Program-made: the position numbers and the translations under genes
The notes under the pieces: model-generated
What the model was told of the DNA's origin: nothing
Databases searched by the model: none
The model's input: only the letters and a program-made list of their open reading frames with translations
Part shown: positions 28,461 to 52,069 of the stretch, piece after piece
Layout of the letters: each line of letters starts with the position of its first letter
Numbering within the stretch: position 1 is the stretch's first letter
From: Quadrisphaera sp. INWT6
GTDB taxonomy: Bacteria; Actinomycetota; Actinomycetes; Actinomycetales; Quadrisphaeraceae
Assembly: GCF_015390235.1 (NCBI RefSeq)
Contig: NZ_VUOH01000001.1
Coordinates: forward strand, 124,001 to 188,000
Direction of reading: 5' to 3'
DNA length: 64,000 nt

Positions 28461-30336
28461 GCGGCGCCCCGCGCAGCCGGTGGCCCGCCGCCGCGCTCCG
28501 CAGGTGCGCCCCATCGCGGTGACCGACCGGTCACTCGCAAGGGGCCCATCCGCGGAGCCTCCCGTCGACGACGCACCGGGTCGGACACCCGCAGACCGGG
28601 TGTCGACCACGCGCCCCGCGCCGCCTGAAGGCCCGTCACCACGGAGCTCGTCATCGGGGAGCTCGTCATCGCGGAAGGCGCCGCGCTCTGGTGGGGGCGC
28701 TCCGAGGATGCGCCCCATGGTTGTGACCGACCGGTCACTCCCAAGGGGCCCATCTGCGGAGCCCCGGGAACCGGCTCCACCGGCCCCGGTCGCGGTGCAC
28801 CCGGCCCCGGCCCCTCCGGCCCCGGCACCTCCGAGTCTGGCCCGCGCTCGCGAGCGGGGCCGGCGCGCCACCGAGGCCGCGTGGGACGGCGTCGCCCGCG
28901 CAGCGGCCGCGATCGCCTACCGCCTGCGCGAGCCGGGTGACGGCACGGGACCGCGGCCGCCCGTCGAGCACGGCGCGTCGCTGGCGCCCACCGGTGACGA
29001 GCGGTCCCGCCTGGTCGCCCTCGCCCGGGGCCCGCTGGGGATGGACGACTACGGCGCTCCGCCCATCCGCAGCGACCTGTACGCCCTGCAGCCGCTGTTC
29101 CCCTTCGCGCACAGCGCGCCGTGGGACTCGCCCGAGGGCGTCTTCGTCGGGTACGACGCGCACACCGGCGAGCCGGTCCGCCACAGCGGCCGCGCGTGGT
29201 TCTCCGCCGGGACGTCCGGGTCGGCGACGCTGGTGCTGGGGTCGAAGTACGCGGGCAAGAGCGCCCTGCTGAAGTCGTACCTGGTGCGGGCCGTCGCCGA
29301 GCACGGGTTCCGCGCCTGGGTCTACGACACGCGGGCCGTGAACTACGTCGAGCGGGTCGACGGCGTGGAGCGGGAGGTCTCCGAGGGGGAGTTCTGCGCC
29401 CTGGTGCGCGAGGCCGGCGGCTCGGTGCACCGCTTCTCCAGCGGCGGGCCGCTGCGGCTCAACCTGCTCGACCCCCGCCTCTTCGGCGCCCGCGACGCCG
29501 GGGGCCGGGAGGGGCTGGTCCGCTCGGTGCTGCAGTTCCTCGCCGGGCGCCGCCTCACCCCGCAGGAGGGGTTCGCGCTGCGGGTGCGGCTGGCCCGCCT
29601 CCTCAGCGCCCCGCACGACGACGAGCGCGCTCCGACCGTCGTCGACCTGCGCGCGGCCCTGCTCACCGCGCCGGCGGACCCCGCGGCGCCGGTGCCCGAG
29701 GAGCCCACCGCCTCGACCGTCACCGAGGGCGAGCTGTTCGCCTGGGGGCGCGACCTCGGGCTGCTGCTCGACAGGCTCGTGCACGGTGACCTCGCCGGAT
29801 TCGTTGACGGGCCCACCTCCGACACCGTCGACCTGGACGCCGACGTCGTCACCTGGGACCTGTCGGAGGTGGCGAGCACGCACCCCGACGTCGTCCCCGT
29901 GCTCATGGCCGCCTCGGCGGCGCTCGTGCTCGGCAGCTGGACCGCGCCCGGCAAGGGGTGGGGCGTCGTCGTCGTCGACGAGCTGTGGAACGCCTTCCGG
30001 GTGCCCGAGCTGGGCGTGGTGGTCCAGGAGGTGATGAAGAAGGCGCGCACCCTCGGCGTGGAGTTCCTGGGGGCCACCCAGCACCTGGTCGACATGCTTG
30101 AGGGCGGCAGCTTCGTCAGCGACGCCGACATCGTCGTGTCGTTCCGGCAGGAGCCCGTCAACGCCCGCGTCTTCGGGCGTCACCTGGGGTTCTCCGACGT
30201 CGAGGTCGACGCCCTGGAGCAGCTCGGCGCCCACCAGGCGGTGTGGAAGGTGCCCGGCGAGCCCGCCCGCGCCGTGCAGCACGTGCTGCACGGCTGCGAG
30301 CAGCGCATCGCCGACACCTCCCAGCGGCTCGTCTGA
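28450..30336 (+). CDS. VirB4/TraC-like secretion ATPase
   Basis: Up to 628 residues from a GTG overlapping the previous stop by 11 bp. From about residue 195 the protein looks normal: 'YALQPLFPFAHSAPWDSPEG', Walker A 'LGSKYAGKSALLKSYLVRA', Walker B 'WGVVVVDELWNAF', and the VirB4-type 'MKKARTLGVEFLGATQHL' and 'SDADIVVSFRQEP'. It would energise substrate transfer or pilus assembly. The first ~110 residues are odd: they are low-complexity and contain two translated copies of the 64-bp palindromic element. A later GTG (28795) could be the true start, which would make the elements intergenic. Confidence 0.78.
   Translation: MSSERRPAQPVARRRAPQVRPIAVTDRSLARGPSAEPPVDDAPGRTPADRVSTTRPAPPEGPSPRSSSSGSSSSRKAPRSGGGAPRMRPMVVTDRSLPRGPSAEPREPAPPAPVAVHPAPAPPAPAPPSLARARERGRRATEAAWDGVARAAAAIAYRLREPGDGTGPRPPVEHGASLAPTGDERSRLVALARGPLGMDDYGAPPIRSDLYALQPLFPFAHSAPWDSPEGVFVGYDAHTGEPVRHSGRAWFSAGTSGSATLVLGSKYAGKSALLKSYLVRAVAEHGFRAWVYDTRAVNYVERVDGVEREVSEGEFCALVREAGGSVHRFSSGGPLRLNLLDPRLFGARDAGGREGLVRSVLQFLAGRRLTPQEGFALRVRLARLLSAPHDDERAPTVVDLRAALLTAPADPAAPVPEEPTASTVTEGELFAWGRDLGLLLDRLVHGDLAGFVDGPTSDTVDLDADVVTWDLSEVASTHPDVVPVLMAASAALVLGSWTAPGKGWGVVVVDELWNAFRVPELGVVVQEVMKKARTLGVEFLGATQHLVDMLEGGSFVSDADIVVSFRQEPVNARVFGRHLGFSDVEVDALEQLGAHQAVWKVPGEPARAVQHVLHGCEQRIADTSQRLV
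28495..28558 (+). repeat. 64-bp palindromic element A, copy 1
   Basis: Imperfect palindrome. Outer arms are gctccgc / gcggagc, inner blocks gcgcccc / ggggccc, with a central gtgaccg-ac-cggtcac. It lies in the open 5' part of the secretion ATPase gene, where it reads as 'APQVRPIAVTDRSLARGPSA'. Confidence 0.85.
28699..28762 (+). repeat. 64-bp palindromic element A, copy 2
   Basis: Same length, orientation and reading frame as copy 1, exactly 204 bp (68 codons) downstream. It reads as 'APRMRPMVVTDRSLPRGPSA'. Between the copies, gagctcgtcatcg is directly repeated at about 28645-28670. Confidence 0.85.
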
Positions 30337-30339
30337 GGC

Positions 30340-31413
30340 GTGCCGGGAGTGGGGCTGCGCCGCCAGCTGTGGTGGTTCGCCGGCATCGCGACCGCCCTGG
30401 TCGTGGCGCTGGTGGCCGTGGCGGTGACGCTCGCGGGCGTGGTCGTGGTGGTCGGCGTGCTGGCCGCCCGAGACCCCCAGCGGGGGACGGCGCCCTCCAC
30501 GTCGTCGGTGGCCGTGGCCGACGGCGCCGTGCCCCAGCGCTACCGCGCCGCCTTCGACTACGCCCTCACGCTCTGCCCCGCCCTGCCCGCTCCCGTGCTC
30601 GCGGCGCAGATCACCCAGGAGTCGGGGTGGGACCCCCGCGCGGTCAGCTCCGCCGGCGCTCGCGGGCTGGGCCAGTTCATGCCCGGCACGTGGAAGGAGC
30701 ACGCCGTCGACGCGAACGGCGGGGGAGCGGAGATCACCGACCCCGCCGACTCCCTGGCCTCGGCCGCCGCCTACGACTGCCACCTGATCGACCAGGTGAG
30801 CGGCAAGGGGTACGACGGCGACGCGGTCTCCCTGATGCTCGCCGCCTACAACGCCGGGCCGGGTGCCGTGGCGCGGTACGAGGGGGTGCCGCCGCCGTCG
30901 TTCTCCGCGGGGCAGACCCACGACTACGTCGCGGCCATCACCGCGATGGCCGCGCGCGACACCGTGGAGACCGTCCCGGGCCTGGTGGTGGCGGGGTCCG
31001 TCCCGGAGCGGCCGCTGCCCGCGTGGCCGGTGGGCGCCGACGGGCTCGCACCGAACGCGGAGTTCGGGCGCCGGTGGCTGCAGGCGAGCTTCGGCGTCGT
31101 GGTGCCGGTGTCCTCGTGCGTCGCGAGCGCCGGGCACGTCGAGGACAGCTACCACTACGACGGCCACGCCTGCGACGTCATGGTCTCCACCGCCGGCTCC
31201 GTGCCCGACGCCGCGGGCACCCAGCTGGGGTGGGCCGTGGCGAACGCCCTCGTGGCCGACCACCGCGGCCTGGGGGTGGAGCAGGTGATCTGGCAGGGCC
31301 GGATCTGGACGGCGCAGCGGCCCACCTGGCGCGACTACGAGAACCCCCTGGGCTCCTCGGTGACCCTCGACCACCTCGACCACGTGCACGTCTCCTTCGA
31401 CCGCGGGCGATGA
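30340..31413 (+). CDS. Lytic transglycosylase with C-terminal VanY/ARB_07466-like domain
   Basis: 357 residues, GTG start three bases after the ATPase stop. An N-terminal membrane helix (residues 8-42) anchors it outside. A goose-lysozyme-like SLT domain follows with the catalytic Glu in 'AAQITQESGWDPRAVS', then 'GARGLGQFMPGTW' and 'LMLAAYNAGPGAVARY'. The last ~130 residues form a second domain with 'HYDGHACDVMV' and a final 'DHLDHVHVSF', the metal-ligand pattern of VanY-superfamily peptidases. It is the wall-opening enzyme expected in a type IV secretion cluster and could cut both glycan and peptide. Confidence 0.82.
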   Translation: MPGVGLRRQLWWFAGIATALVVALVAVAVTLAGVVVVVGVLAARDPQRGTAPSTSSVAVADGAVPQRYRAAFDYALTLCPALPAPVLAAQITQESGWDPRAVSSAGARGLGQFMPGTWKEHAVDANGGGAEITDPADSLASAAAYDCHLIDQVSGKGYDGDAVSLMLAAYNAGPGAVARYEGVPPPSFSAGQTHDYVAAITAMAARDTVETVPGLVVAGSVPERPLPAWPVGADGLAPNAEFGRRWLQASFGVVVPVSSCVASAGHVEDSYHYDGHACDVMVSTAGSVPDAAGTQLGWAVANALVADHRGLGVEQVIWQGRIWTAQRPTWRDYENPLGSSVTLDHLDHVHVSFDRGR

Positions 31414-31420
31414 TCACGGG

Positions 31421-32021
31421 GTGCCGCGCCGCCTCCTCGACCCCGGGACGTCGACGCGCCGCACCCCGCAGGCCCGCGAGCGCCTCGCCGCGCACCCCAT
31501 GACCACCGCTCTGCTCGACGCGGGGGAGTGCGCCTGCTGCTCGCCGAGCTCCAGCCCGCCGCCGCCGGTGCACCCGGCGCCCCCAGCAGCGCCAGGTCCT
31601 TCGAGCACCACTCCGCCGCGGCCATCGCCCAGGCCGGCCAGCTGCTTGCGCTCCTGCCGCCCGGCCCGACCGTCGACGACGCGGCCGCCGTCCCCGCCCG
31701 CAGCGACCTGCACGCCTGGAGCGACCCGGTCACCACGCGGGCCGGGGTGCTCTCGTGCGCGCTCGCGGCGTCGCACCCGTGGCTGCGTGACGTGCAGCGG
31801 CGCAACGACGCGGTGTACGACGCCGCGTGGGGCACCGCGCTCGCCGGGGTGCCGCGCGGCGCGGGCCGGGGGATGCGCGAGGGCGTCGCGCTCCGGCTGG
31901 TGGCGCACGGGGAGACGCCCGCGGACCAGCGGCTGGCCGACGCCGACCTCACCCGCGGCTGCGCGGCGCTGCTGCGCTCGCCCGGTCCACCACCGCGGTG
32001 CTCATGGCCCTCCTCGCGTGA
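31421..32021 (+). pseudogene. Single-unit homologue of the tandem TetR-like protein, broken
   Basis: From the GTG at 31421 the peptide starts 'RRLLDPGTSTRRTPQARERL', nearly the opening of both units of the 22.8-kb protein. The frame breaks near 31525 (gcgggggag run) and continues in the next frame ('VRLLLAELQ', then 'RSFEHHSAAAIAQAGQ'). A C-terminal 'MREGVALRLVAHGETPADQR' matches the end of unit 1. A second shift near 31980 would give the natural end 'ARSTTAVLMALLA' at 32021. The 'LRDRWP' helix-turn-helix stretch is missing. It may be a pseudogene or carry sequence errors, but lacking the DNA-binding core it could not act as a normal regulator. Confidence 0.6.
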
Positions 32022-32175
32022 TGCGATGGGTGTCAGCTGGAGTTGAGGTGTGTCACGTCCGATGCACATGGGGGGGCGGTCCTCTTCGCGCTGTGGCGTC
32101 GTCCCGTCCCCCTCACCGGTCGAGCCGCGCACCTCGCGTCGGGCGCGGGCGCTGCCCCGGGCACGCTGAACGGCG

Positions 32176-32355
32176 GTGAGGGTCCTGGAGACCGTTCGCG
32201 GGGCTGAGGCGAGCGCGAAGGCGCTCACGAGGCTGCTCGACGAGAAGGACGACGCGCACCACGGCACCACCCACCCGTCTCGTGATCGGGTTCGACAGAT
32301 GCTCGAGCACGCCGTGACGATGGTGGCGGAGGTGGACGCGCTGCTCGCTCGGTGA
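32176..32355 (+). CDS. Small hypothetical protein, 59 residues
   Basis: Open frame from GTG 32176 to TGA 32355. The peptide is mixed-charge and helical ('VRVLETVRGAEASAKALTR', 'RVRQMLEHAVTMVAEVDALL'), with none of the Arg/Pro bias of shadow frames. No family recognised and no convincing ribosome site. It lies 31 bp before the GH4 gene on the same strand. The stretch 32022-32175 before it holds nothing I can name. Confidence 0.4.
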   Translation: MRVLETVRGAEASAKALTRLLDEKDDAHHGTTHPSRDRVRQMLEHAVTMVAEVDALLAR

Positions 32356-32386
32356 GCGCCGGTCATCGGAACCCCAGGAGGACCCC

Positions 32387-33673
32387 GTGAAGCTCGCCAT
32401 CGTCGGCGGCGGCTCGACGTACACCCCCGAGCTGGTCGACGGCTTCCAGCGCTACCGCGACGTGCTGCCGCTCGACGAGCTGGTGCTCGTCGACCCCGAC
32501 CCGCAGCGCCTGGAGCTAGTCGGCGGCATCGGGCGGCGCATGCTCGCCCGCGCCGGCCACCCGGCCCGGCTGACCACCACCAGCGACCTCGCCGCGGGCG
32601 TCGACGGCGCCGACGCGGTGCTGCTGCAGCTGCGCGTCGGTGGGCAGGACGCGCGGCACGCCGACGAGACGTGGCCCCACGAGGTGGGCTGCATCGGCCA
32701 GGAGACCACTGGTCCCGGCGGACTCGCCAAGGCGCTGCGCACCGTGCCGGTGGCCCTGGCCATCGCCGACGTCGTCCGGGAGCGCGCGAAGCCGGGCGCG
32801 TGGATCGTCGACTTCACCAACCCCGTCGGCATCGTCACGCGGGCGCTGCTGCAGGCCGGGCACCGCGCCGTCGGCCTGTGCAACGTGGCCATCGGGTTCC
32901 AGCGGCGCTTCGCCGCGGCGCTGGGGGTGCCCGCCGACGACGTGCAGCTCGGCCACGTGGGGCTGAACCACCTGACGTGGGAGCGCAGCGCGGTGGTCGG
33001 CGGCGTCGACAGGCTGCCGGGGCTGCTCGCGGAGCGGCTGCAGGAGGTGGCCGACGACGTCGAGCTGCCGCCCGCGCTGCTGGCGGAGCTGGGGTCCGTG
33101 CCGTCGTACTACCTGCGCTACTACTACGCGCACGACGAGGTGCTCGCCGAGCAGCTCACCAGCCCCACCCGGGCGGAGGCGGTGCGCGCCATCGAGCGCG
33201 AGCTGCTGGCCGTGTACGCCGACCCGTCGGTCGACACCAAGCCGGCGGCGCTGGAACGCCGGGGTGGGGCGTTCTACTCCGAGGCCGCCGTCGAGCTGCT
33301 GGTCGCGATGCGGGGCAGCCGGTGGGGTGGAGCCGCCGGCGGTCCCGTCGGCCGCCCGCGCGTGGTGGACCTGCGCAACGACGGCGTCCTGCCGTTCCTC
33401 CCGGACGACCACGTCATCGAGGTGCCCGCCACCTTCACGGGCGGCCGGTTCGTGGCCGAGCTGGTGGCGCCGCTGCCGGAGGCGGCCCGCGGGCTGGTCG
33501 CCGCCGTCGCCGGGTACGAGCGGCTGGCGCTGGACGCGGCCGTGCACGGGGGCCGCGGGCGGGTGCTCGCCGCGATGCGGGCGCACCCGCTGGTGCTGCA
33601 GCACGCCCGGGCCGAGAGGCTCACCGACCTGCTGCTCGCGCAGAACGCAGGGTTCCTGCCGTGGGCGCGGTGA
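32387..33673 (+). CDS. Glycoside hydrolase family 4 (6-phospho-beta-glucosidase type)
   Basis: 428 residues, ATG with a clear ribosome site (caggagga). GH4 enzymes use NAD+ and Mn2+ and split sugars by a redox-elimination route. Visible marks: the NAD fold 'KLAIVGGGSTYTPELVDGF', 'LRVGGQDARHADE', 'QETTGPGG', the Mn-ligand Cys in 'GLCNVAIGFQRR' and the His in 'GLNHLTWER'. The C-terminal 'AERLTDLLLAQN' is also family-like. The usual substrates are 6-phospho-beta-glucosides or chitobiose-6-phosphate. The next gene, coupled by a GTGA overlap, is a sugar kinase, suggesting uptake and phosphorylation of an amino sugar or glucoside. No transporter is in view. Confidence 0.88.
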   Translation: MKLAIVGGGSTYTPELVDGFQRYRDVLPLDELVLVDPDPQRLELVGGIGRRMLARAGHPARLTTTSDLAAGVDGADAVLLQLRVGGQDARHADETWPHEVGCIGQETTGPGGLAKALRTVPVALAIADVVRERAKPGAWIVDFTNPVGIVTRALLQAGHRAVGLCNVAIGFQRRFAAALGVPADDVQLGHVGLNHLTWERSAVVGGVDRLPGLLAERLQEVADDVELPPALLAELGSVPSYYLRYYYAHDEVLAEQLTSPTRAEAVRAIERELLAVYADPSVDTKPAALERRGGAFYSEAAVELLVAMRGSRWGGAAGGPVGRPRVVDLRNDGVLPFLPDDHVIEVPATFTGGRFVAELVAPLPEAARGLVAAVAGYERLALDAAVHGGRGRVLAAMRAHPLVLQHARAERLTDLLLAQNAGFLPWAR

Positions 33674-34656
33674 CCAGTCCGCGCGTGGTCGTCGCCGTCG
33701 ACGGCGGCGGCAGCAAGACCGACGCCGTCGCCCTCGACCTCGAGGGCCGCGTGCTGGCCCGCGCCCGCGGCACGGGCAGCAACCCGCAGACCGTGGGGCT
33801 CGCCCCCTCGGTGGAGGTGGTGGGCGCCCTGGTGCGCGACGTGAGCGCCGCGGCCGGCGGCGCCGAGCGCGTGTCCGGCGTCGACCTCTACCTGGCGGGC
33901 ATGGACCTGCCCGTGGAGGTCTCGACGTACGCGCGGGCCCTGGACGGCTGTGACTGGGCCGTGGACCCCCTGATCGACAACGACCTGTTCGCCCTCCTGC
34001 GCAGCGGCACGAGCGCCCCCGACGCGATCGCCGTGGTCTGCGGCACCGGCATGAACGCCGTCGGCCTGCGGGGCGACGGCGAGCGGGTGCGCTTCCCGGC
34101 GCTCGGCGCGCTCTCCGGAGACTGGGGCGGCGGGGCCGGCCTGGGGGCGGAGGCGCTGTGGCACGCCGCGCGCGCCGTCGACGGCCGCGGTCCTGCCACC
34201 GCTCTGGTCGAGGGCGTGTGCCGGGTGATGGGCGTCGCGTCGGTGCTGGAGGTGGTGGAGCAGATCCACCTGGGACAGCGCCCGGGGTCGGACCTCAACC
34301 GCATGGCCCCGGAGGTCTTCCGCGCCGCCGGGGCCGGAGACGAGGTGGCCGGTGCGCTGGTCGACCGGCAGGCCGACGAGGTGCTCGCCTTCGTCGCGGC
34401 GATCGTCAGGCGGCTCGACCTGGCCGCCGAGCCGGTGCCCGTGGTGCTGGGCGGCTCGGTGCTGCAGGCCGGGCACGCCCGCCTCACCGAGCGGACCACC
34501 CGGGGGATCCTCGCCCTGGCCCCGCACGCCCGCGTGCTGCGCCCGAGCGGGGCGCCCGTCACGGGCGCGGCGCTGCTGGCGCTGGAGCGGGCCGGTGCCG
34601 GCGCAGCGGCGCTGGACCGCGCGCGCTCCGAGCTGGAGTCACCCGCGACGCCGTGA
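33670..34656 (+). CDS. BadF/BadG-type sugar kinase, N-acetylglucosamine kinase-like
   Basis: 328 residues, GTG start overlapping the GH4 stop. ASKHA-fold ATPase: phosphate-1 motif 'VVAVDGGGSKTDAVALDLEG', a second 'VVCGTGMNAVG', 'LSGDWGGGAGLGAEALWHA', and a late adenosine motif 'VPVVLGGSVLQAG'. Eukaryotic and bacterial N-acetylglucosamine kinases share this layout, and pairing with a GH4 gene favours an amino-sugar or glucoside kinase. Its stop codon lies inside a long terminator-like hairpin shared with the convergent gene. Confidence 0.82.
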   Translation: MTSPRVVVAVDGGGSKTDAVALDLEGRVLARARGTGSNPQTVGLAPSVEVVGALVRDVSAAAGGAERVSGVDLYLAGMDLPVEVSTYARALDGCDWAVDPLIDNDLFALLRSGTSAPDAIAVVCGTGMNAVGLRGDGERVRFPALGALSGDWGGGAGLGAEALWHAARAVDGRGPATALVEGVCRVMGVASVLEVVEQIHLGQRPGSDLNRMAPEVFRAAGAGDEVAGALVDRQADEVLAFVAAIVRRLDLAAEPVPVVLGGSVLQAGHARLTERTTRGILALAPHARVLRPSGAPVTGAALLALERAGAGAAALDRARSELESPATP

Positions 34657-34711
34657 TCATGCAGAGGACCCGCACCTCGAGCCCCGAGGTGCGGGTCTTC
34701 TGCATGATCAC
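34653..34711. terminator. Bidirectional terminator hairpin between convergent genes
   Basis: 27-nt arms (34653-34679 and 34685-34711), complementary except for one G-T pair, with a 5-nt loop. The stop codons of both flanking genes lie inside the stem (TGATCA at each end). There is no U tract, as is usual for GC-rich actinobacteria. Confidence 0.8.
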
Positions 34712-38084: not shown

Positions 38085-38522
38085 ATGAGCACCGACGACG
38101 TCTACGGCCAGCCACCGCACACCGGGCCCCAGCCCCAGGGGACGCCGGGGTACGGCGTGCAGCCCTACGCCGGACAGCCGCACCCGGGGCAGCCCCCTGC
38201 GTACGGACCGCCGCCGGGGTACGGGATGGGCCAGACGGTCTTCCCCCAGCCGTACAAGGACACGACTGCCGCGTGGCTGTTCTGGGTGTTCCTCGGCGGG
38301 TTCGGCGCCCACGACCTCTCCCTGCGCCACACCGGCGCCGGCGTCGCCAAGCTGTGCCTGAACCTGCTGGGCTGGCTGCTGACGCTGGTGCTCATCGGCT
38401 ACGTGCTGCTGTTCGCGCTCTTCGTGTGGTGGGTCGTCGACGCCTGCCTCATGAGCAGCCGGTTGCAGCAGGTGAACAACCGGATCTACGCGCACGACCG
38501 CGCCATCGGCGCCGCTCACTGA
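38085..38522 (+). CDS. TM2 domain protein
   Basis: 145 residues from an ATG with 'gggggag' upstream. A Pro/Gly/Gln/Tyr-rich cytosolic start ('GYGVQPYAGQPHPGQPPAYG') is followed by a TM2 pair: 'TAAWLFWVFLGGFGAHDLSL', where the usual FY is replaced by DLSL, and 'LIGYVLLFALFVWWVVDACL'. The tail is polar ('MSSRLQQVNNRIYAHDR'). TM2 proteins have no defined biochemical role. It is isolated: divergent from the Wzz-like gene and followed by a palindromic element. Confidence 0.75.
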   Translation: MSTDDVYGQPPHTGPQPQGTPGYGVQPYAGQPHPGQPPAYGPPPGYGMGQTVFPQPYKDTTAAWLFWVFLGGFGAHDLSLRHTGAGVAKLCLNLLGWLLTLVLIGYVLLFALFVWWVVDACLMSSRLQQVNNRIYAHDRAIGAAH

Positions 38523-38545: not shown

Positions 38546-38609
38546 GCTCCGCAGATGTGCCCCATCAGCGTGACCGCCCGGTCACTCCGAAGGGGCGCTT
38601 CTGCGGAGC
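38546..38609 (+). repeat. 64-bp palindromic element A, copy 3
   Basis: Intergenic, 24 bp after the TM2 gene. The arms gctccgcaga / tctgcggagc match perfectly, with the centre gtgaccg-cc-cggtcac. Same orientation as copies 1 and 2. It could serve as a terminator for the TM2 gene. Confidence 0.85.
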
Positions 38610-38706: not shown

Positions 38707-39789
38707 TCAGCCGGTGGGCGTGAAGACCGTCATCGTCGGTCGGTGCCGCGTTCCCGAGCCGTCTTCGCTGCTCAGCACGGTGAAGCTGGTGACCCGCCCG
38801 ACCGCCGGGGTGGCCAGCACGTGGTCGATCGGCATCGCCAGCAGCGGCGGCAGTCCCGTCCGCCACGTGCCCACCCCAGCGCTGTGCCGCAGCGACGCGG
38901 CGTCTGCGCAGAGGCCGAGGCGCGGACCGCCGAAGTCGTCGACGCTCGCGTTGAAGTCGCCGGCCACCAGCACGGGCGAGGTGGTGGAGCACCTCGCCGC
39001 GACCCAGTCGACGTCGCGCTCCCACCCCGGCAGCCCTGGCCCCACCGGCCAGGGGGCGTGCAGCGCCAGCACCGTCGGCAGCGACGCGTTGTCGGGAACC
39101 AGCTCGACCGCCTTCCTCGGGTCGGGGCCCGGCAGTGCGGTGTAGCGCCCGGCGAGGCCGGGGGAGGCCCACACCGCGACCTGCTCCGACGGCAGCTCGT
39201 CGTTGACGCGGACCATGCGCTGCCCAGCGGCGGTGAAGGCGGCGCGGTAGTCGTCGTCGGTGCGTAGCGCCTGCTGCGGCAGGACGACGAGGTCCGCGTG
39301 CTGCGCCACCGCCAGCTCCGCCACGACGTCCGGCGTGGTGAGTCGCCCGTTGGTGTTCCACTCCAGCACCCGCAGCTGCCCGGCGGCCGGTGCCGCGACC
39401 GGCTCGCCGACCACCCCGCGCGCGAGCACCACGGGTAGGTGCAGGCCCACGGCGAGAGCGAGTGCAGCGGCGAGCGGCAGTCCGAGCCGCAGCCGCACGA
39501 CGCGCGTGACCAGCAGGAGCAGGACGACGACGAGGGCCGCGCTCGCGGCGACCGCCAGGGCCCCGCGCGCGGGGAGCGCCGGGGCGATGACCTGCCAGCG
39601 TTCGACGCCGACGTGCGGAGCGGCGAAGAGGACCACGGCGCCCGCCGCCACGAGGGCGGCGAGCACCCGCACCGCTACCACGGCCGCTCTCCGCACGGGT
39701 CGGCCGTCCGCGGCCCGCCTGGGTGTCCTCCGAGCGGGGCCAGCGCCCGGGTGTCCGTGCTCTGCGTTTTCCTGGTCAGTTGTCGACAC
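38707..39789 (-). CDS. Endonuclease/exonuclease/phosphatase-fold membrane protein
   Basis: 360 residues from the GTG at 39789; a TTG at 39813 is possible. A basic start and three hydrophobic helices (residues ~40-125) place the catalytic domain outside. EEP motifs: 'LRVLEWNTNGRL' (metal site), 'DLVVLPQQ' (the usual Glu of this motif is Gln), 'VLVAGDFNASVDD', and the C-terminal 'PIDHVLATPAVG' with 'RHRPTMTVF', where the usual SDH is RHRP. The fold is clear, but these changes at metal and catalytic positions make the activity uncertain. It could be a phosphodiesterase or nuclease at the cell surface. It follows rmlD's 3' end on the same strand. Confidence 0.7.
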   Translation of the reverse strand: MSTTDQENAEHGHPGAGPARRTPRRAADGRPVRRAAVVAVRVLAALVAAGAVVLFAAPHVGVERWQVIAPALPARGALAVAASAALVVVLLLLVTRVVRLRLGLPLAAALALAVGLHLPVVLARGVVGEPVAAPAAGQLRVLEWNTNGRLTTPDVVAELAVAQHADLVVLPQQALRTDDDYRAAFTAAGQRMVRVNDELPSEQVAVWASPGLAGRYTALPGPDPRKAVELVPDNASLPTVLALHAPWPVGPGLPGWERDVDWVAARCSTTSPVLVAGDFNASVDDFGGPRLGLCADAASLRHSAGVGTWRTGLPPLLAMPIDHVLATPAVGRVTSFTVLSSEDGSGTRHRPTMTVFTPTG

Positions 39790-43812: not shown

Positions 43813-43838
43813 GTGGCGCGGAGGCGCTTGATCGTCGC
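43813..43838 (-). repeat. Inverted repeat B, right arm (split copy)
   Basis: 26 bp ending gcttgatcgtcgc, complementary to 43397-43422 with one mismatch. Seven bases after it begins the right half of a palindromic element A, so the two repeat families abut. Confidence 0.85.
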
Positions 43839-43845
43839 GGGAGGG

Positions 43846-43885
43846 GTGACGGAGCGGTCACCGCGAAGGGGCGCATCCGCGGAGC
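43846..43885 (+). repeat. Palindromic element A, right half only
   Basis: 40 bp: the central gtgacgg-ag-cggtcac and the right arm through gaaggggcgcatccgcggagc in pieces. The left 24 bp of the 64-bp element are missing, replaced by the right arm of repeat B. Confidence 0.75.
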
Positions 43886-44215: not shown

Positions 44216-44234
44216 GCACCCACTCCCACGACTT

Positions 44235-44279
44235 CTGCGGGCGCGGGCTCCTCACCAGGTGAGGGGCTCGCGCCCGCAG
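44235..44279. terminator. Bidirectional terminator hairpin
   Basis: 22-nt arms (44235-44256 and 44258-44279) starting ctgcgggcgcg, with one or two mismatches, between the small membrane gene (plus) and the small Cys-rich gene (minus). It includes the stop codon of the latter. Confidence 0.7.
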
Positions 44280-44374: not shown

Positions 44375-44434
44375 CCCACGATGGTGCGCCGGGCGAACGG
44401 TGACCGGCCAGACCAGATCGGGTGACGACGGCGG

Positions 44435-44456: not shown

Positions 44457-44505
44457 GTCCAGCACGCTCACAGGCTCCGTGGACCTACCGCCCGGTCGCA
44501 CGGCC

Positions 44506-44511
44506 TAGAAC
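44506..44511 (+). promoter_or_regulatory. Candidate -10 of a leaderless promoter
   Basis: tagaac, eight bases before the GTG start at 44519. Transcription would begin almost at the start codon. Confidence 0.4.
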
Positions 44512-44518
44512 TGGGTCC

Positions 44519-44722
44519 GTGGACATCTGGCTCGTCGCCGTTCTCGTCGCCTGGATCCCGGTCGCCGCGCTGCTGGCGCTGCTGGTCGGGCGCACCGTCG
44601 CCCAGTCCGAGGCACGGGAGCGCCTGGTCACGCGTCGCCTGCGTGCGGGTGACCCCGTTCCCGTCGTCGTCCCGCGGCAGGTGCATGCGCACGCCGCGGC
44701 TCGCCGCCACCTGGCGTCCTGA
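44519..44722 (+). CDS. Single-helix small membrane protein (paralogue of 44012)
   Basis: 67 residues, GTG start, no Shine-Dalgarno, consistent with a leaderless message. The N-terminal helix 'VAVLVAWIPVAALLALLVGR' is followed by 'TVAQSEARERLVTRRLRAG' and a basic tail. It has the same length and plan as the protein at 44.0 kb. Its TGA abuts the stop of the convergent transferase (shared TGATCA). No function known. Confidence 0.55.
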   Translation: MDIWLVAVLVAWIPVAALLALLVGRTVAQSEARERLVTRRLRAGDPVPVVVPRQVHAHAAARRHLAS

Positions 44723-45976: not shown

Positions 45977-46145
45977 GCGGGCACCTTCCATGGGGCTCGT
46001 ACCCGGCCATCCTGGCGCACGGGTCTGCCGCCCGAGGGGCGTTCCGCTAGATCCGGCGTGTCCGAACCGGTGCAAGATCGCCGAAAAGGGGCGTCTGGTG
46101 CTCCTGTGGCCCCTGCCGGTCGGAAAGCGCTCCTGAAGCCCATGA

Positions 46146-47276
46146 TCACGTGCGGGGGTGGGGGAGGACAGCGCGGACGGTCTCGGCAGCGACCGCGTCC
46201 CAGGTGCGGGGGTGCGCGCGCGGCGCCGGCCGGGGCGCCCCGGGTGCCAGGTGCTCGACGACGGCGCGCGCCCACGCCTCCACGTCGGTCGCCGCGACGT
46301 GCCGCGCCGTGCCCCCGCTGACCTCCACCAGCGCCGGGTCGAGGGAGGTCACCAGCGGCGCGCCCAGGTCGAGGGCCTCCTGCGCCGGCAGGCCGTACCC
46401 CTCCACCAGGCTCGGGGCCAGCACCACCGCGGCGTTCTCGTAGCACCAGCGCAGGGCCGCGTCGTCGACCCCCTGCAGCTGCACGAGGTGCCCCGACGCC
46501 ACCAGCCGGGCGTGGTCGGGCCCGTACGCCTCCTCGCCCCACGGCGGCGGACCCACCAGCGCGAGGGCCGCGTCGGCGTGCTCGGGGTGGGTGTCCACCG
46601 CGCGGGCCCACGCCGAGACGGCCGTGGCGAGGTTCTTGCGGGGGGAGGAGTCGCCCACCACCAGCCCGAACCGCCGCCCCGCCAGCTGCGGCACCGGGGT
46701 GGCGGGCGCCTCCAGCAGCGCCGGGCCCGTCGCCGACAGCACCACCGCGGCGCGGTCCGCCACCTGCGGGTGGTGCGCCAGCAGCGCGGCGCGCGTCGCC
46801 TCCGAGACGCACACCAGCGCGTCGGCCTGGCGGATCGAGGCGGCGTACGGCCGCTGCAGCAGCACCCGCTTGGCCGGCGGGAAGTCCTGCGGGCGGTCGG
46901 CGAGCACCATGTCGTGCACCGTCAGGGCGGTCCGCGCCCCCACTCCGCGCGGCACCAGGTGCTTCACGCCGTGGACGACGTCGAACGCGCCGTCGGCCAG
47001 ACCCAGCCCGCCGAGGCGCGTCCCGAGCACCCACCGCTCCCACGCCGGGAGCGCCTTGTCGGCCGCCGCGGGAGCCGCGTGCACCCGCGACGCGTCCCCG
47101 CCGACCAGGGCCGCCAGCGGCTGCGCGGCCGCCGCTGAGGTGAGCAGGTGCAGCTCGACGTCGTCGCGCCGCTCCAGCGCCCTGGCCAGCTCGACGGTGT
47201 ACCTGACGATGCCGCCGAGACGGCCGCTGGCGGGGACGTGGCTCGCCATCAGCAGCCACCGGGCTCGTCGCGTCAC
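46146..47276 (-). CDS. GT4 glycosyltransferase
   Basis: 376 residues from the GTG at 47276 (an ATG at 47249 is possible). Marks: 'RLGGIVRYTVELARALER', 'VVHGVKHLVPRG', 'TVHDMVLADRPQDFPPAKR', 'ALVCVSEATRAALLAHHP', 'LVVGDSSPRKNLATAVSAW', and the nucleotide-sugar site 'LAPSLVEGYGLPAQEALDLG'. This is the WbaZ/mannosyltransferase-like branch of GT4. It is divergent from a GT2 gene; the ~95-bp gap must hold both promoters. Confidence 0.86.
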   Translation of the reverse strand: MTRRARWLLMASHVPASGRLGGIVRYTVELARALERRDDVELHLLTSAAAAQPLAALVGGDASRVHAAPAAADKALPAWERWVLGTRLGGLGLADGAFDVVHGVKHLVPRGVGARTALTVHDMVLADRPQDFPPAKRVLLQRPYAASIRQADALVCVSEATRAALLAHHPQVADRAAVVLSATGPALLEAPATPVPQLAGRRFGLVVGDSSPRKNLATAVSAWARAVDTHPEHADAALALVGPPPWGEEAYGPDHARLVASGHLVQLQGVDDAALRWCYENAAVVLAPSLVEGYGLPAQEALDLGAPLVTSLDPALVEVSGGTARHVAATDVEAWARAVVEHLAPGAPRPAPRAHPRTWDAVAAETVRAVLPHPRT

Positions 47277-47371
47277 CCGCCCAGGACTACCACGGAGCCG
47301 CTCGCGAGCAGCCACCCCGCGGTCCCACCCCGCAGCCCCGCAGCCGACCGCCGTGCGCCACGCTGGCTCCC

Positions 47372-48433
47372 GTGCCCGACCAGAGCGACCTGACCGACGC
47401 ACGCGCTGCACCCGGTGTCTCGGTGGTGATGGCGACGTACGACGGGGCGCGCCACCTGCGGGAGCAGCTCGACAGCATCGCCGCGCAGACGCTGCAGCCG
47501 TGCGAGCTCCTCGTCGGCGACGACGGCTCCACCGACGACACGCTGCGCGTCCTCGAGGAGTTCGCCGCCACCAGCGCGTTCCCCGTGCACGTGGTGCGCA
47601 ACCCCACCAACCTCGGCTTCGCCGACAACTTCCTCGAGACCGCCCGCCGGGCGCGCGGCCGCTACATCGCCTTCAGCGACCAGGACGACGTGTGGCTGCC
47701 CCGCAAGGTCGAGGAGTCGGTGGCGGCGATCGTCGCCCACGACGCCGTGATGGCCACCCACCAGGTGGTGCTCGTGGACGTCGAGGGCACCCCGATCCGC
47801 CTCGACCCGCAGCTCATCACCCACGACGCCGTGGTCGAGCCCGGCGCGTCGGAGCCCTTCGGCCTCTACTTCGGCTTCGCCATGACCATCGACGCCCGCC
47901 TGCTCCAGCTGCTCCCGCACGCCGAGCGCGGCACCGACACGTACACCGCCACCAAGGTGCTCCCGCACGACCGGTGGGTCTACTTCCTCGCCACCAACTT
48001 CGGCCGCAGCGCGCTCATCGCCCACCCGCTGGCGCACTACCGCCAGCACCCCACCCAGTCGTACGGGGTGCGACCCGTGCCGTTCGTGCAGCGGTACCGC
48101 AACAAGGTGGCCGAGGGTTCCGAGCGGCTCGACTTCCTCTCCCGCACCGCCGCGCACCGCGCCGAGCTGGCCACCCGCCACGCGCCGTCCGCCCCCGCCA
48201 GCGTTCTCGACCGCGGGGTCTGGCGCGCCGTCGTCGAGCGGTACGAGCGGGTGGCGCGGCTGTACGCCCTGCGCAGCGAGCTGCACCGCGCCGCCGGGCT
48301 GCCCGCCAGGGCCCGCCTGCTCGCGAGGCTCGCGGCCGCCGGCACCTACGCCCCGGTCACCCGCGGCGGGCTCGGGCGCCGCCGGCTCGCCGAGGACGTC
48401 GTGCTCGGTCTCCTGAGGGCGAGCTGGCTGTGA
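47372..48433 (+). CDS. GT2 glycosyltransferase, rhamnosyltransferase-like
   Basis: 353 residues. GT-A fold: 'VSVVMATYDGARHLREQLDS', 'LLVGDDGSTDDTLRVLEEF', and the metal-binding 'AFSDQDDVWLPRKVE', the S-D-Q-D-D-x-W form typical of rhamnosyltransferases. 'VLPHDRWVYFLA' and 'PLAHYRQHPTQSYG' are further marks. The C-terminal 100 residues are helical. A dTDP-rhamnose supply (rmlABCD) is 4 kb away. Its stop overlaps the next GT2 by 4 bp. Confidence 0.87.
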   Translation: MPDQSDLTDARAAPGVSVVMATYDGARHLREQLDSIAAQTLQPCELLVGDDGSTDDTLRVLEEFAATSAFPVHVVRNPTNLGFADNFLETARRARGRYIAFSDQDDVWLPRKVEESVAAIVAHDAVMATHQVVLVDVEGTPIRLDPQLITHDAVVEPGASEPFGLYFGFAMTIDARLLQLLPHAERGTDTYTATKVLPHDRWVYFLATNFGRSALIAHPLAHYRQHPTQSYGVRPVPFVQRYRNKVAEGSERLDFLSRTAAHRAELATRHAPSAPASVLDRGVWRAVVERYERVARLYALRSELHRAAGLPARARLLARLAAAGTYAPVTRGGLGRRRLAEDVVLGLLRASWL

Positions 48434-49356
48434 GCGCGCCCGCCGCCCAGCGGGACGGTCAGCCCCGGGTCGCCGTCGTCCTCGCCTCCGCGGGGCGCCC
48501 CGAGCTGCTGGGGGAGGTCGTCGCCGACCTCGCCCACCAGACCCTCCCCGGCCTGGGCGTCGACGTCCGCGTCGTGGTGTCCGTGCCCGACGCCGCGAGC
48601 CTGCCCGCCGCGCCGCTGCCCGACCACGTGCGCGTCGTCCACGCCCGCGGCCTCACCAGCCAGCGCAACGCCGGCCTCGACGCCGTGCCCGACGCCACCC
48701 ACGTCTTCTTCTTCGACGACGACGCCGTGGTCCGCCCCGACTACCTCGCCGAGGCGATGCGCTTCTTCGCCGCCCACCCCGACGTCGTCGCCCTCACGGG
48801 GCGGGTGCTCCTCGACGGCGCCGTCGGCGACGCCGTCGACCCCGAGACCGCCCGCGCCGCCCTCGAGCGCTCCACCACCGAGCCCCTCGGCGGCACCTGG
48901 CAGCCCAGCCTCACCCTCTACGGCTGCAACTTCGCCGTCCGCCGCGACGGCGTGGCCCACGAGCGCTTCGACGAGCGGCTGCCCCTGTACGGCTGGCTCG
49001 AGGACCACGACTACGCCCGCCGCATGCTGCGCCACGGGCCGCTGGCCTCCGTCGACGACTGCGTCATCGTCCACCGCGGCGTGAAGTCCGGCGGTCGGAC
49101 CGCCCACCGCCGCCTCGGGTACGCCCAGGTCATGAACCCGGCGTACTTCCTGCGGCACGGCAGCTTCCCGCCGCTGCTCGCCCTCGACGAGGGAGGACGG
49201 CGCGTCGCCAAGAACGCCGTGCTCGCGCTCGCGGGCCCCGAGCGCCGGTGGCGCCGCCAGCGCCTGCGCGGCAACCTCCTGGCCGCCGCCGACGTGCTCC
49301 GCGGCCGGTTCACCCCCGAGCGGATGGCGCAGCTGCCCCCCGACGGCCCGTCCTGA
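48430..49356 (+). CDS. GT2 glycosyltransferase
   Basis: 308 residues, GTG start in a GTGA overlap. Motifs: 'VAVVLASAGRPELLGEVVAD', 'GLTSQRNAGLDAV', the metal site 'VFFFDDDAVVRPDYLAEAM', 'YGCNFAVRRDGVAHERFDE', and 'PLYGWLEDHDYARRMLRHG' (catalytic ED). It ends with a basic helix. It forms a two-gene unit with the preceding transferase and ends just before the intact inverted repeat B. Confidence 0.86.
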   Translation: MSAPAAQRDGQPRVAVVLASAGRPELLGEVVADLAHQTLPGLGVDVRVVVSVPDAASLPAAPLPDHVRVVHARGLTSQRNAGLDAVPDATHVFFFDDDAVVRPDYLAEAMRFFAAHPDVVALTGRVLLDGAVGDAVDPETARAALERSTTEPLGGTWQPSLTLYGCNFAVRRDGVAHERFDERLPLYGWLEDHDYARRMLRHGPLASVDDCVIVHRGVKSGGRTAHRRLGYAQVMNPAYFLRHGSFPPLLALDEGGRRVAKNAVLALAGPERRWRRQRLRGNLLAAADVLRGRFTPERMAQLPPDGPS

Positions 49357-49382
49357 CCCCCTCCGACTCCTCCACCCCCCCT

Positions 49383-49443
49383 CCGCGACGATCAAGCACC
49401 TCAGCGCCACAACGAGTGGCGCTGAGGTGCTTGATCGTCGCGG
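49383..49443. repeat. Inverted repeat B, intact hairpin
   Basis: Perfect 28-bp arms (49383-49410 and 49416-49443) with a 5-nt loop, between convergent genes, so it can act as a bidirectional terminator. Its core is the same sequence whose arms are split around the gene at 43.5 kb. Confidence 0.88.
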
Positions 49444-49452
49444 GGAGGGGGA

Positions 49453-51789
49453 TCAGGTGTAGGCGCGGACCCAGTCGACGTAGAGGTCGCTCGTGCCGCC
49501 GGTGGGGCCCAGGTCGACGGGCCAGCCGCCGCCGAGCGCCATGTCGAGCAGGAAGAACATCGGCTCGTCGGAGCGCCCCAGGCCTCGCCGCTCGGCCACC
49601 TGCACGCCGTCGACGTAGAACGTCGCGCCGTCGGGTGTCACCCGGACCCCGAAGTCGTGCCACCCCTGCGACCAGTCCGGCAGCGACGGCGGCGACAGGC
49701 ACGACGACGCCGTGGAGCCGGAGTCGTCGGGGGCGCCCCAGTCGTGGAGCGTGTGGCAGGTGAACGAGGTGTCGTGACCGTACAGCTCGACGGCGTCGAC
49801 CTCGCCTGCCGTGCTGTTGTCGGGTGTGGCCGACTGGCTGTTCAGCATCCAGAACGCCGGCCAGGTGCCCTTGCCGGCACCGGAGAGCATCCGCGCCTCG
49901 AAGTAGCCGTACTGCGCGCTGAACCCCGCCGCACCGACCCGCGCCGAGCTGAGGATGCCGCCCGCGTGCTGCTGGCCGTAGGGCCTCTCGACGGCGAGGT
50001 CGCCGATCGGCTGGGCGCGCAGCCGCAGGTACCCGCCCTGGGAGTCGGCCTGGGCGTCGCCGCCGGCCAGCGTCGCGACGGTGTCAGCGCCCAGCGCCGG
50101 GTCGGGGAAGACCGCGTCGCCGAACTGCGCCCCGCCCCAGTGCTCGGGCTTGGTGGCCGCGTACACGGCGCCCGCCCCGGTGCCGCTGACCGGCAGCGGC
50201 CCGGCGAAGTCGTCCTCCCACTGGAGGGTCATCCCGGCGGGGGCGTGGCCGGCGTCGTCGGTCGGCTGGCCCCCGCCGTGCACCAGCTGCACCTGCAGCG
50301 GGGTGGTGTCACCGGAGGCCTGCGTCACGTCGAGGGCGAACGGCCCGGCCGGGAAGGCGCTCGTGTCGACGACGAGCTGGGCGCGCCCGTCGGCGTCCGC
50401 CGTCGCGCTCGCCACCTCGACCGGCTCCGCCTCGGCGCCCGCGCTGGCTGTCGTGGCAGCGCTGCCGGCGGTGGTGGCCGCGGTGGTGGCCGTCACGACG
50501 GCGCCCGGCTGCCCGCTGACCACGACCTCGGCGGAGCCGCCGACCACTGAGCCCACCGCGGGGCACACCAGCGCCAGCGCACCGCCTGCCGCCGAGCCCA
50601 CCGGGTCGCCGCCGCACTGCGCCGCGGGCGGCTCCACCGCGTACGTCTCGCCGTCCTGCTCGGCGGTGCTCTCGCCGTCCCACCGCACGGGCGTCGCACC
50701 GACGCCGTAGGCGGCGAGCTCGCGCAGCCCCGCCCGCGCCGAGGAGAAGTTCTCGGTCAGCGTCAGCCGCACCGACGTCACCGTCCGCGGGGCGACGGCG
50801 ACCGTGGTCGGCTGTCCGGCCCCGCCGTCGATGCCGGAGACCACGGCGCTGGAGCCGTCGGAGAAGTACAGGCGGCCCGACAGCGGCGAGGCGCCGGTGG
50901 CCGACGGGTCGCTGGCCGCGCGCTCGGGCCCGAAGACCTGCACCGCGCTGAGCAGCTGAGGCTGCGGCCACGCCAGCTCGACCCAGGGGGCGTCGTCGTC
51001 GGTCGCCGAGCGCCACTCGCTGCCGGTCTGGCGCTCCGGCAGGTCGCCGTCGACCAGGGCCCCGGGGGCGGTGCCGTCGGCGCTGCTCGACGCGGTGGCG
51101 GTCGCCCCCGCCAGCGGCGGGGAGTCGCCGCCCGAGGACGTCCGCGCGAGCGCGAGGACGGGCGGGTCGCCGCCGTCGTCGACCAGCAGGCCCGCCAGGC
51201 CCGCGCCGGACTCCCCGCCGGACGCCGTGAACCGCGCGGTGCTCACCGACCGCTCGGGGAAGGAGGCCTCCGCCGTGCCGTCGGCCCCGGCCGTGACCAT
51301 CACCGACGCGCCGCCGTCGAGGGTGAGCAGCCCGGAGGTCACCGGGGGAGCGCCCGCGGCGGGCACCAGGCGGACCCGGTCGACGGTCCGCGGGGAGGTC
51401 CAGTGCAGCTGCACCCACGCGCCGACCGGGTCGCCGCTGGCCGCCCATGCCGCTTCCGCGCGGGAGCCGCCCTCGGTCACCAGGGCGGTGGCGTCGGCGG
51501 TGGCGCTGTCGTTGGAGGCGGTCACGCGCGGTGCCTGGGGCGCGGTGCGGTGCGCCAGCACCCACACCCCGCTCGCCACCAGCACGGCGGTGGCGGTCGC
51601 CGCGGCCACCAGCACCACCGCGCGGCGCTGCCGGGAGCGGCGCTCGGCGCGGGGGCGGGCGCGGCGGCCGGGTGCCTCCTCGACGGTGGCAGCGGCGGCG
51701 CCGCCGGGCTCGGGGGGCGGGCCGTCGGTGGGGTGCGAGGGCAGTGCGGGGCTCCGTGACGTCGTGGCCTCCGCTGCTGCGACGACCAC
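49453..51789 (-). CDS. Glycoside hydrolase family 16 with discoidin-like domains
   Basis: About 778 residues from the GTG at 51789 (start uncertain; open to 51876). A cytosolic Arg-rich start ('RARPRAERRSRQRRAVV') and one helix anchor it. Two galactose-binding/discoidin-like regions follow ('WVQLHWTSPRTVDRVRLVP' and 'WVELAWPQPQLLSAVQVFG'), then a linker domain with two Cys. The C-terminal GH16 jelly roll shows 'GYFEARMLSGAGKGTWPAFW', the catalytic 'GEVDAVELYGHD' (ExDxxE) and 'DEPMFFLLDMALGGGWPVD'. It should cut beta-1,3 or mixed beta-glucan or a related polymer at the cell surface. It is a paralogue of the enzyme at 60.1 kb. Confidence 0.83.
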   Translation of the reverse strand: MVVAAAEATTSRSPALPSHPTDGPPPEPGGAAAATVEEAPGRRARPRAERRSRQRRAVVLVAAATATAVLVASGVWVLAHRTAPQAPRVTASNDSATADATALVTEGGSRAEAAWAASGDPVGAWVQLHWTSPRTVDRVRLVPAAGAPPVTSGLLTLDGGASVMVTAGADGTAEASFPERSVSTARFTASGGESGAGLAGLLVDDGGDPPVLALARTSSGGDSPPLAGATATASSSADGTAPGALVDGDLPERQTGSEWRSATDDDAPWVELAWPQPQLLSAVQVFGPERAASDPSATGASPLSGRLYFSDGSSAVVSGIDGGAGQPTTVAVAPRTVTSVRLTLTENFSSARAGLRELAAYGVGATPVRWDGESTAEQDGETYAVEPPAAQCGGDPVGSAAGGALALVCPAVGSVVGGSAEVVVSGQPGAVVTATTAATTAGSAATTASAGAEAEPVEVASATADADGRAQLVVDTSAFPAGPFALDVTQASGDTTPLQVQLVHGGGQPTDDAGHAPAGMTLQWEDDFAGPLPVSGTGAGAVYAATKPEHWGGAQFGDAVFPDPALGADTVATLAGGDAQADSQGGYLRLRAQPIGDLAVERPYGQQHAGGILSSARVGAAGFSAQYGYFEARMLSGAGKGTWPAFWMLNSQSATPDNSTAGEVDAVELYGHDTSFTCHTLHDWGAPDDSGSTASSCLSPPSLPDWSQGWHDFGVRVTPDGATFYVDGVQVAERRGLGRSDEPMFFLLDMALGGGWPVDLGPTGGTSDLYVDWVRAYT

Positions 51790-51894
51790 GGGTGTCCACG
51801 GGGGACCGCGGGGGCGTCCGGACAGCGCGGAGGCGGGCGGGGAAGGTGGGCCTCGGGCTCGCCGCGACGGTAGCACCGGGACCTGGCCGGCCCA

Positions 51895-51954
51895 GCTGCC
51901 TCGAGCTGCCTCGAGCTGCCTCGAGCTGCCTCGAGCTGCCTCGAGCTGCCTCGA
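51895..51954. repeat. 10-bp tandem repeat, six copies
   Basis: gctgcctcga six times without a mismatch. It lies in the 387-bp region 51790-52176 between the GH16 start and the divergent flippase gene, which otherwise holds only element A copy 4 (52006-52069) and no further gene. Confidence 0.9.
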
Positions 51955-52005
51955 CGGACCGCTGCCGGTGCCCCTGGACGCCGCTCGCGGTGACCCGGGC
52001 GCGGT

Positions 52006-52069
52006 GCTCCGCGGATGGGCCCCTTCGCGGTGACCGAGCGGTCACGCTGATGGGGCGCATCTGCGGAGC
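52006..52069 (-). repeat. 64-bp palindromic element A, copy 4 (inverted)
   Basis: Full 64-bp copy in the opposite orientation. Its reverse complement matches the other copies, with centre gtgaccg-ct-cggtcac. It is intergenic, upstream of the flippase gene. Confidence 0.85.

Follow-up and report, generated by a model that had tools for sequence, protein, structure and literature searches.

A dispersed 64-bp hairpin family in Quadrisphaera and its likely ties to genes for AbiEi-like-head proteins

The DNA analysed here, referred to as the window, is a stretch of 64,000 nucleotides (contig C1, positions 124001-188000) from the genome of Quadrisphaera sp. INWT6, a 4.2-Mb draft in 8 contigs that we designate G000. 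It contains several copies of a 64-bp near-palindrome, family A, that recurs elsewhere in the genome. We favour, with reservations, the reading that family A is the Quadrisphaera member of a class of dispersed hairpins tied to proteins with an AbiEi-like head, most of which also carry a DUF559/MTES_1575 nuclease domain. Hairpin families with different arms bracket or adjoin the genes for such proteins, and the same hairpin also stands alone elsewhere in the genome in the case of family A, a second Quadrisphaera family (B), and three hairpins from other genera. This set of hairpins appears to be undescribed, and its arrangement resembles that of the REPtrons, in which repetitive extragenic palindromes (REPs) accompany a partner gene, with an unrelated enzyme.

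A profile search recovered 18 homologues of these proteins in six genomes, comprising 12 full-length proteins, four of the type that accompanies family A (T-type, described below), and two short frames, L117 and L120, that are not part of the bracket count; L120 is flanked on two sides by similar hairpins. When the 260 bp upstream and downstream of each gene were compared, the same hairpin was found on both sides at E <= 1e-5 for 7 of the 12 full-length Quadrisphaera genes and for 0 of 200 control genes from the same Quadrisphaera genomes, where the downstream piece of a control starts after the stop codon and that of an observed gene was given 12 more bases. All of these controls are Quadrisphaera genes; Arthrobacter and Tsukamurella contributed none. 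Upstream, the hairpin is at most ~225 bp from the start codon; downstream, it begins in the interval from ~11 bp ahead of the stop codon to 52 bp past it. Hairpins scoring at least 15 were present within 200 bp of 8 of the 14 loci that are not T-type, compared with 44 of 480 control genes when family A copies were set aside (p 1.6e-5) and 84 of 480 when they were included. As many of the bracketed genes are orthologous, these counts represent fewer independent lineages.

The full-length relatives match the Vsr-fold nuclease DUF559/MTES_1575 at their C-termini, above the curated cut-off in three of six proteins in one set and two of five in another, the others matching more weakly. DUF559/MTES_1575 is classed as a Vsr-type restriction endonuclease (PMC3710099). 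Profile matches to the PDB were weak, with E 0.036 for 3hrl and E 0.44 for 3r3p, the latter a mobile intron protein and a relative at best. The AbiEi antitoxin models of PADLOC match the N-terminal part of the scanned Arthrobacter and Tsukamurella proteins, with E-values down to 2.8e-13, and weakly match one Quadrisphaera protein; the proteins described here differ from AbiEi antitoxins in their C-terminal nuclease. Three stretches in viral contigs fit a peptide pattern of the nuclease protein, and none was confirmed as a relative.

Family B (TGATCATGCAGARGACCCGCAC; in the window at 34653..34711) provides an example of a hairpin that both brackets a gene and is dispersed. In G000, family B hairpins lie on both sides of a gene for a winged helix-turn-helix (wHTH)-DUF559 protein (C3:14898-15449, locus L119), and the family also brackets the gene in G004 and G005. 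Elsewhere, the hairpin is present in 14 of 15 places from relatives (convergent at 10, tandem at 4), and none of the 15 stretches, each 3 kb long, contains a gene homologue. At the same locus as L119, with colinear flanks, G001 (C12, L121) has the wHTH-DUF559 gene reversed and 69-70% identical, which corresponds to an inversion or replacement of the unit between hairpins.

Comparable loci occur in other genera. Using tblastn in plasmid records, we identified relatives of the protein in Arthrobacter, Tsukamurella, and Nonomuraea, and five of the six foreign loci (three from Arthrobacter and two from Tsukamurella) are bracketed at E <= 1e-5, each by its own hairpin; the Nonomuraea locus is not. 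The gene on Tsukamurella plasmid 12 has a 64-bp hairpin abutting each of its ends. Four foreign hairpins were searched against the 72,556 records of a plasmid collection, in which a palindrome usually yields hits on both strands and the brackets themselves are included. Three of the four are dispersed within their own strain, and they occur in no other organism of the 72,556 records. For the two hairpins of Arthrobacter sp. StoSoilB13, the two records of the strain give 10 and 38 strand-places (~5 and 19 sites), the more numerous being the one that brackets the L145 gene; for that of Tsukamurella tyrosinosolvens, 8 records, all from the one strain, give 20 strand-places (~10 sites). According to the record annotation, seven dispersed Tsukamurella copies comprise five between convergent and two between tandem genes; six lie outside genes and one overlaps an annotated start by 4 bp.

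Family A is itself linked to a gene of this kind. In G000, G001, G003, and G004, a family A copy is located 80-136 bp upstream of a gene encoding a 205-240 amino acid protein, the T-type, which receives no name from Pfam or NCBIfam and has no nuclease domain. We place it in the AbiEi-like family because of its alignments to other members, the AbiEi models themselves giving no match. The T-type proteins of G001 and G004 are 57% identical, compared with 96-99% for neighbouring proteins, and the gene is fast-evolving. In G000 it is found at a different locus, next to a peptidase gene, where G005 has a full-length relative; homology between the two genomes at this locus ends with the end of the peptidase gene. 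G002 has neither a T-type gene nor a family A copy.

A comparison of loci suggests that the N-terminal domain and the hairpin change together. At a locus common to five species, the G002 protein L115 has an N-terminal domain like that of L109 and L110 from another locus (67-72%) and carries the GTCGGAACC hairpin, as they do, with a nuclease domain closest to that of its positional orthologue L112 (84%). L112, L106, L113, and L114 have another N-terminal type (69-92% identical among themselves and 51-58% to L115), and their hairpins or arrays are, by eye, made of GCCCCWT. In this one case, L115 versus L112, the hairpin type follows the N-terminal type while locus and nuclease domain remain constant. 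The arms of family A contain the GCCCCWT word too, and the N-termini of the T-type proteins are 48-56% identical to L106, L112, and L113 versus 40-44% to L109. In L113 and L114, CGCCCCWT repeats lie ~20 bp apart beside the wHTH-DUF559 gene, by eye as if serial protein units bind. A lone 86% match to the GTCGGAACC hairpin, which is found beside full-length genes of G002 and G005, occurs in G000 at L011:11894-11943.

Within the window, full copies of family A are located at 28495..28558 and 28699..28762 (a doublet, both + strand), 38546..38609 (+), and 52006..52069 (-), and a 40-bp right half at 43846..43885 (+), all as read in an earlier note on this DNA made from the letters alone. The first doublet copy begins 34 bp past the stop codon of gene 26934-28460, and only its first ~14 bp remain in the relative G005; the second has orthologously placed counterparts in G005 (L064:3730) and G003 (L066:5295). 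Convergent genes (38085-38522 on the + strand and 38707-39681 on the - strand) lie on either side of the third copy, and divergent genes (49453-51789, - strand, and 52132-53628, + strand) on either side of the fourth. The ends, inner blocks, and centre that all copies were said to share are mostly common to them, except that the copy at 28699 starts with GCTCCGAG, that at 38546 has the inner block GTGCCCC, and the centre of the half copy reads GTGACGG-AG-CGGTCAC. The asymmetry of the inner blocks, by which the note assigned orientation, is real, if loose, with arms drawn from a common pool (CTTCAGCGTGA, CTTGGGAGTGA, and others). Among 38 pairs with both arms conforming to the pattern, no significant match between left and right is seen in the inner columns (p 0.21-0.51); in the outer columns the arms are matched in G000 (p 0.004) and G004 (p 0.03), and not in G003 (p 0.38). 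The stem is paired in 86.7% of cells, versus 35-44% when partners are slid, and at 9 pairs both sides show changes; the mean minimum free energy (MFE) of the hairpin is -51 kcal/mol.

Blastn with the first copy as the query returned more copies, with E-values down to 1.5e-16, and the genome-wide search that the earlier note proposed, which we ran with a covariance model built from 17 copies of G000, found at least 22 full-length 64-bp places at E < 1e-7 among the best 150 of 7,957 first-look candidates. Copy numbers from this model are lower bounds, the best 150 or 35 candidates having been scored per genome. The family is thus not limited to the window, which the note had given as one outcome contrary to its proposal of a mobile family. 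The other, that each copy lies in an ancient homologous duplication, is not borne out either: among 94 proteins encoded up to two genes from the G000 copies, there are only two alike pairs (67% and 43%) from different sites, so duplicated loci do not explain family A. Twelve of the 22 copies are clustered within 235 kb of contig C4 (8,715-234,333), which is 5.6% of the genome (P 3.6e-10; with doublets collapsed, 9 of 18, P 1.6e-7), the remainder being on C1 (five), C2 (three), and C6 (two), with none on C5, which carries dnaA. Doublets occur at five places with a spacing of 143-204 bp, and a few are local tandem duplications, with units of 146 bp at L049 and 196 bp at L063; alignments of close doublets overlapped themselves, and from those runs only the G005 comparison and the L049 unit are used.

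Family A is confined to Quadrisphaera, apart from three weak single places in the order. A broader model matched 8 of 149 genomes of the order, namely five of the six genus members and three others, the latter being 3 of 143 non-genus genomes with one weak place each. Besides the 22 in G000, there are at least 18 places in G003, 14 in G004, 5 in G005, and 2 in G001, and none by the broader model in G002; a looser search gave 54 strand matches in G003. A core-pattern scan of named genomes, which may leave out G000 itself, matched 15 stretches of Quadrisphaera granulorum DSM 44889, 2 of one metagenome-assembled genome, and nothing else. No match was found in viral contigs, plasmids, or phages, the viral scan using an exact pattern, and a viral or plasmid origin was rejected on this lack of matches. 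The earlier note did not recognise family A as a described actinobacterial element, and a literature search, with subscription journals mostly outside it, likewise found no description of palindromes like these. In a sister genus, G009 and G012 have a separate palindrome family (GTCCACGAGCGTGACCGTGCACGGTCACGCTCGTGGAC) with a similar core at 16 and 10 places, which is absent in two congeners.

Five family A sites are common to at least two species, with the same flanking genes. At a site shared by G001, G003, and G004, the flanking proteins are 92-99% identical, yet the outer arms differ genome by genome, and the remaining spacer is barely alignable between G001 and G004. The identity of outer arms within a genome is 0.80 in G000, 0.78 in G004, and 0.69 in G003, versus 0.44-0.61 between these genomes and 0.35-0.42 at orthologous sites involving G003; inner-arm identity is 0.77-0.80 in all of these within- and between-genome comparisons of the three. 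In six family A regions aligned to G005 and other genomes, and likewise at the window doublet, neither a target duplication nor a clean empty site was seen. In G004, an extra gene with a cell-wall-binding domain lies between two family A copies where G000 has a single copy (L048/L053), resembling a cassette-like gain or loss.

Our preferred reading of these data is that the N-terminal domain of the protein would recognise the hairpin arms, so that the copies of one genome would drift together with the protein. Arm binding of this kind would be the simplest reading of the genome-specific arms and of the covariation between N-terminus and hairpin. Spreading of the hairpins by the nuclease would be a further step, in which the domain may cut or nick hairpin DNA and repair may copy the hairpin ends to new intergenic places, the copies then persisting as hairpins near gene 3' ends; an origin by cutting and copying is likewise thought to apply to REPs and TnpA-REP. 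Because the T-type protein lacks the nuclease and its gene lacks a downstream hairpin, family A is probably no longer spreading, and its copies are probably kept as binding or termination sites, as a retained remnant.

Several observations weigh against this reading. Among the full-length genes, 5 of 12 fail the bracket test (L110, L112, L113, L115, and L121, the last at E 7e-4), and L106 passes only at 4.5e-6; hairpins of score at least 11 are found near 144 of the 480 control genes in the fetched loci. None of the four T-type genes is bracketed, the hairpin being on the upstream side only in all four, and as three of the four are orthologous the link between family A and the T-type is based on few independent events. 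G005 has five family A copies and no T-type gene was found in its 94% complete draft, while G001 has a T-type gene and only two copies. The AbiEi models miss the T-type protein and two of the three scanned Quadrisphaera full-length proteins, and a structure model of the T-type protein was useless (single sequence, predicted local distance difference test score 35). Of the Quadrisphaera hairpins, dispersal is shown for families A and B only, and the hairpin of Arthrobacter ERGS1:01 occurs at two sites only, both of them brackets. The arms are also not uniformly genome-specific, since orthologous outer arms of G001 and G004 are 0.62 identical at site S-II, those of the nearer pair G000 and G005 remain alike (0.85-0.88), and G000 and G004 have a common old arm type at S-III (0.92), indicating that homogenisation is incomplete. 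In the six aligned regions copies are kept, altered, or absent, with no clean insertion. In Tsukamurella the arms are conserved and the central 14-18 bp are different in each copy, which is not what recent copying would give, and variable centres together with old positions point to long retention after any spreading.

A less probable, though credible, explanation is that an autoregulating AbiEi-like protein uses the hairpins as operators or as binding sites of another sort, with the dispersed copies forming a regulon or serving as structural sites and the nuclease taking no part in any spreading. AbiEi proteins bind inverted repeats located ahead of the genes that encode them. In most loci with any hairpin, one is found within 225 bp upstream of the gene, family A copies are alike within a genome although the T-type protein has no nuclease, and the Tsukamurella hairpins keep conserved arms and a fixed length of 64 bp around variable centres. 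The placement of the copies fits this explanation less well. All 24 family A rows of G000 are intergenic with our own gene caller, which gave few gene overlaps in the relatives; a hairpin of another sequence at C4:50258 (L011:13259) is tallied with family A in the intergenic, region-alignment, and placement counts, and the half copy in the first and last of these. The copies hug gene 3' ends, with 34 of 72 lying within 40 bp (median distance 56 bp), and avoid 5' ends, with 2 of 58 so close (median 140 bp), these distances being taken from 65 of 69 rows, including six from G009 and one from G028. These positions speak against operators, as do the convergent and tandem settings of the dispersed Tsukamurella copies; a scan of 20 neighbour proteins found no common function and no transposase, and a plain operator has no use for another copy at the stop codon.

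The same positions could suggest that the hairpins are ordinary bidirectional terminators conserved by function, with the bracketed genes merely lying between them, which we regard as improbable. The 49 sites in five genus genomes comprise 18 convergent, 21 tandem, and 10 divergent, while free intergenic bases are 19% convergent, 48% tandem, and 32% divergent, and the convergent excess of family A (p 0.003), the convergent and tandem places of family B, and the stability of the stems would all be expected of terminators. The 10 divergent sites would not be, and of 19 tandem sites only 7 have their more stable RNA strand in the sense direction. Moreover, termination leaves unexplained why the hairpins form sequence families, why the same hairpin brackets genes as it does around none of the controls, and why the arms are genome-specific. 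As to a known structured RNA, no Rfam family reached the gathering score in the window and there is no strand preference, and this candidate was rejected.

The earlier note assigned family A to the REP or miniature inverted-repeat transposable element (MITE) type, or to the Rickettsia palindromic type. Rickettsia palindromic elements sit inserted within genes, and the G000 copies lie outside them. What stands of the former assignment is a dispersed, intergenic, genus-specific family with a partner gene and a REP-like arrangement; recent mobility is not supported, given the five interspecies sites and the aligned regions described above. Dispersed intergenic palindromes and five doublet places would suit a classical REP with its REP-associated tyrosine transposase (RAYT), or a transposon-derived MITE, but we consider this reading very improbable, with the RAYT form refuted. 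PF01797, the Y1 HUH tyrosine transposase, is absent from all 13 family genomes searched, G000 included (1 of 29 genomes positive in all; 5 of 14 control genomes), and among the 22 full copies of G000 the tetranucleotide at the hairpin foot is GTAG in none and CGTC in one. We found no transposon with family A arms as distant ends, there being no two unpaired arms within 3 kb on a contig. Few arms lack a partner at a distance of 23 bp (2 in G000, 2 in G001, ~10 in G003, 0 in G004, and 5 in G005, against 1, 3, 8, 3, and 1, respectively, for a reversed-pattern control), the count in G005 being above its control, at 5 vs 1.

The least probable alternative, which the data give hardly any room, is that of chromosome-organisation sites for a terminus or domain protein, like matS, whose half-site is GTGAC with a spacing of N3: the GTGAC...GTCAC core and the concentration of copies on part of C4 with none on the dnaA contig are reminiscent of such sites, but the spacing here is N6, the copies of G003 and G004 are spread over more contigs, and MatP (PF06303) is absent from all six genus genomes, with a positive E. 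coli control.

Among known systems, the closest likeness is to REPs and bacterial interspersed mosaic elements with TnpA-REP (RAYT) REPtrons (PMC8266576, PMC3116915, PMC3733652). There, as here, the repeats are short, imperfect, dispersed intergenic palindromes whose copies flank a partner gene, the gene behaves like a resident rather than a multi-copy transposase, and protein and repeat seem to diverge together. A repeat-flanked gene combined with a dispersed repeat, by which REPtrons are recognised, was found for family B and three foreign hairpins, and for family A on the upstream side only. The differences are an AbiEi-like head with a DUF559/Vsr-type nuclease in place of the Y1 HUH domain, no GTAG tag, and elements of ~50-75 bp in tens of copies rather than hundreds. 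In the TIRYT/TIRtrons, inverted repeats flanking the gene also form a dispersed family, and the enzyme is a tyrosine transposase instead of a Vsr-type nuclease protein (PMC3733652). The DUF559/Vsr-like nucleases share the nuclease domain, with weak to moderate matches, and in the parts of those reports accessible to us no association with dispersed hairpins was found (PMC12907096, PMC3710099). A literature search, again with subscription journals mostly outside it, found nothing linking the DUF559/MTES_1575/AbiEi-like protein family to repeats.

More broadly, and only tentatively, proteins that combine an AbiEi-like head with a Vsr-fold nuclease might constitute, alongside the tyrosine transposases, a widespread second class of hairpin-making and homogenising enzymes in bacterial genomes, which would recognise their own arms, seed copies between convergent genes by cutting and repair, and force the copies to evolve in step. 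If so, such nucleases would have produced many of the hairpins that pass for 'terminators' in Actinomycetota. How REP-type repeats originate and remain uniform is an open question, addressed so far with one enzyme class; an unrelated second class of proteins in the same genomic arrangement would reveal which features of these partnerships are essential. The unnamed family of DUF559 proteins with an AbiEi-like head would thereby gain a suggested role, and annotators would be cautioned that a conserved hairpin between convergent genes may be more than a terminator, namely a member of a protein-linked sequence family.

Other features of the window adjoin those described above. A third hairpin family, C (CGACGATCAAG...CTTGATCGTCG), lies between genes at 49375..49451 and also at L051:2225-2284, and no partner gene was found for it. 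The left side of the family A half copy is fused to one family C arm, a likeness judged by eye, forming a chimera at 43822-43885 in which the arm (GCTTGATCGTCGCGG) runs straight into the right 40 bp of family A. More long hairpins, unassigned to any family, adjoin gene ends at 44235-44279 and 58859-58911. The genes flanking the family A doublet (26934-28460 and 28795-30336) encode proteins weakly like SCO6880-family and VirB4-like conjugation ATPases.

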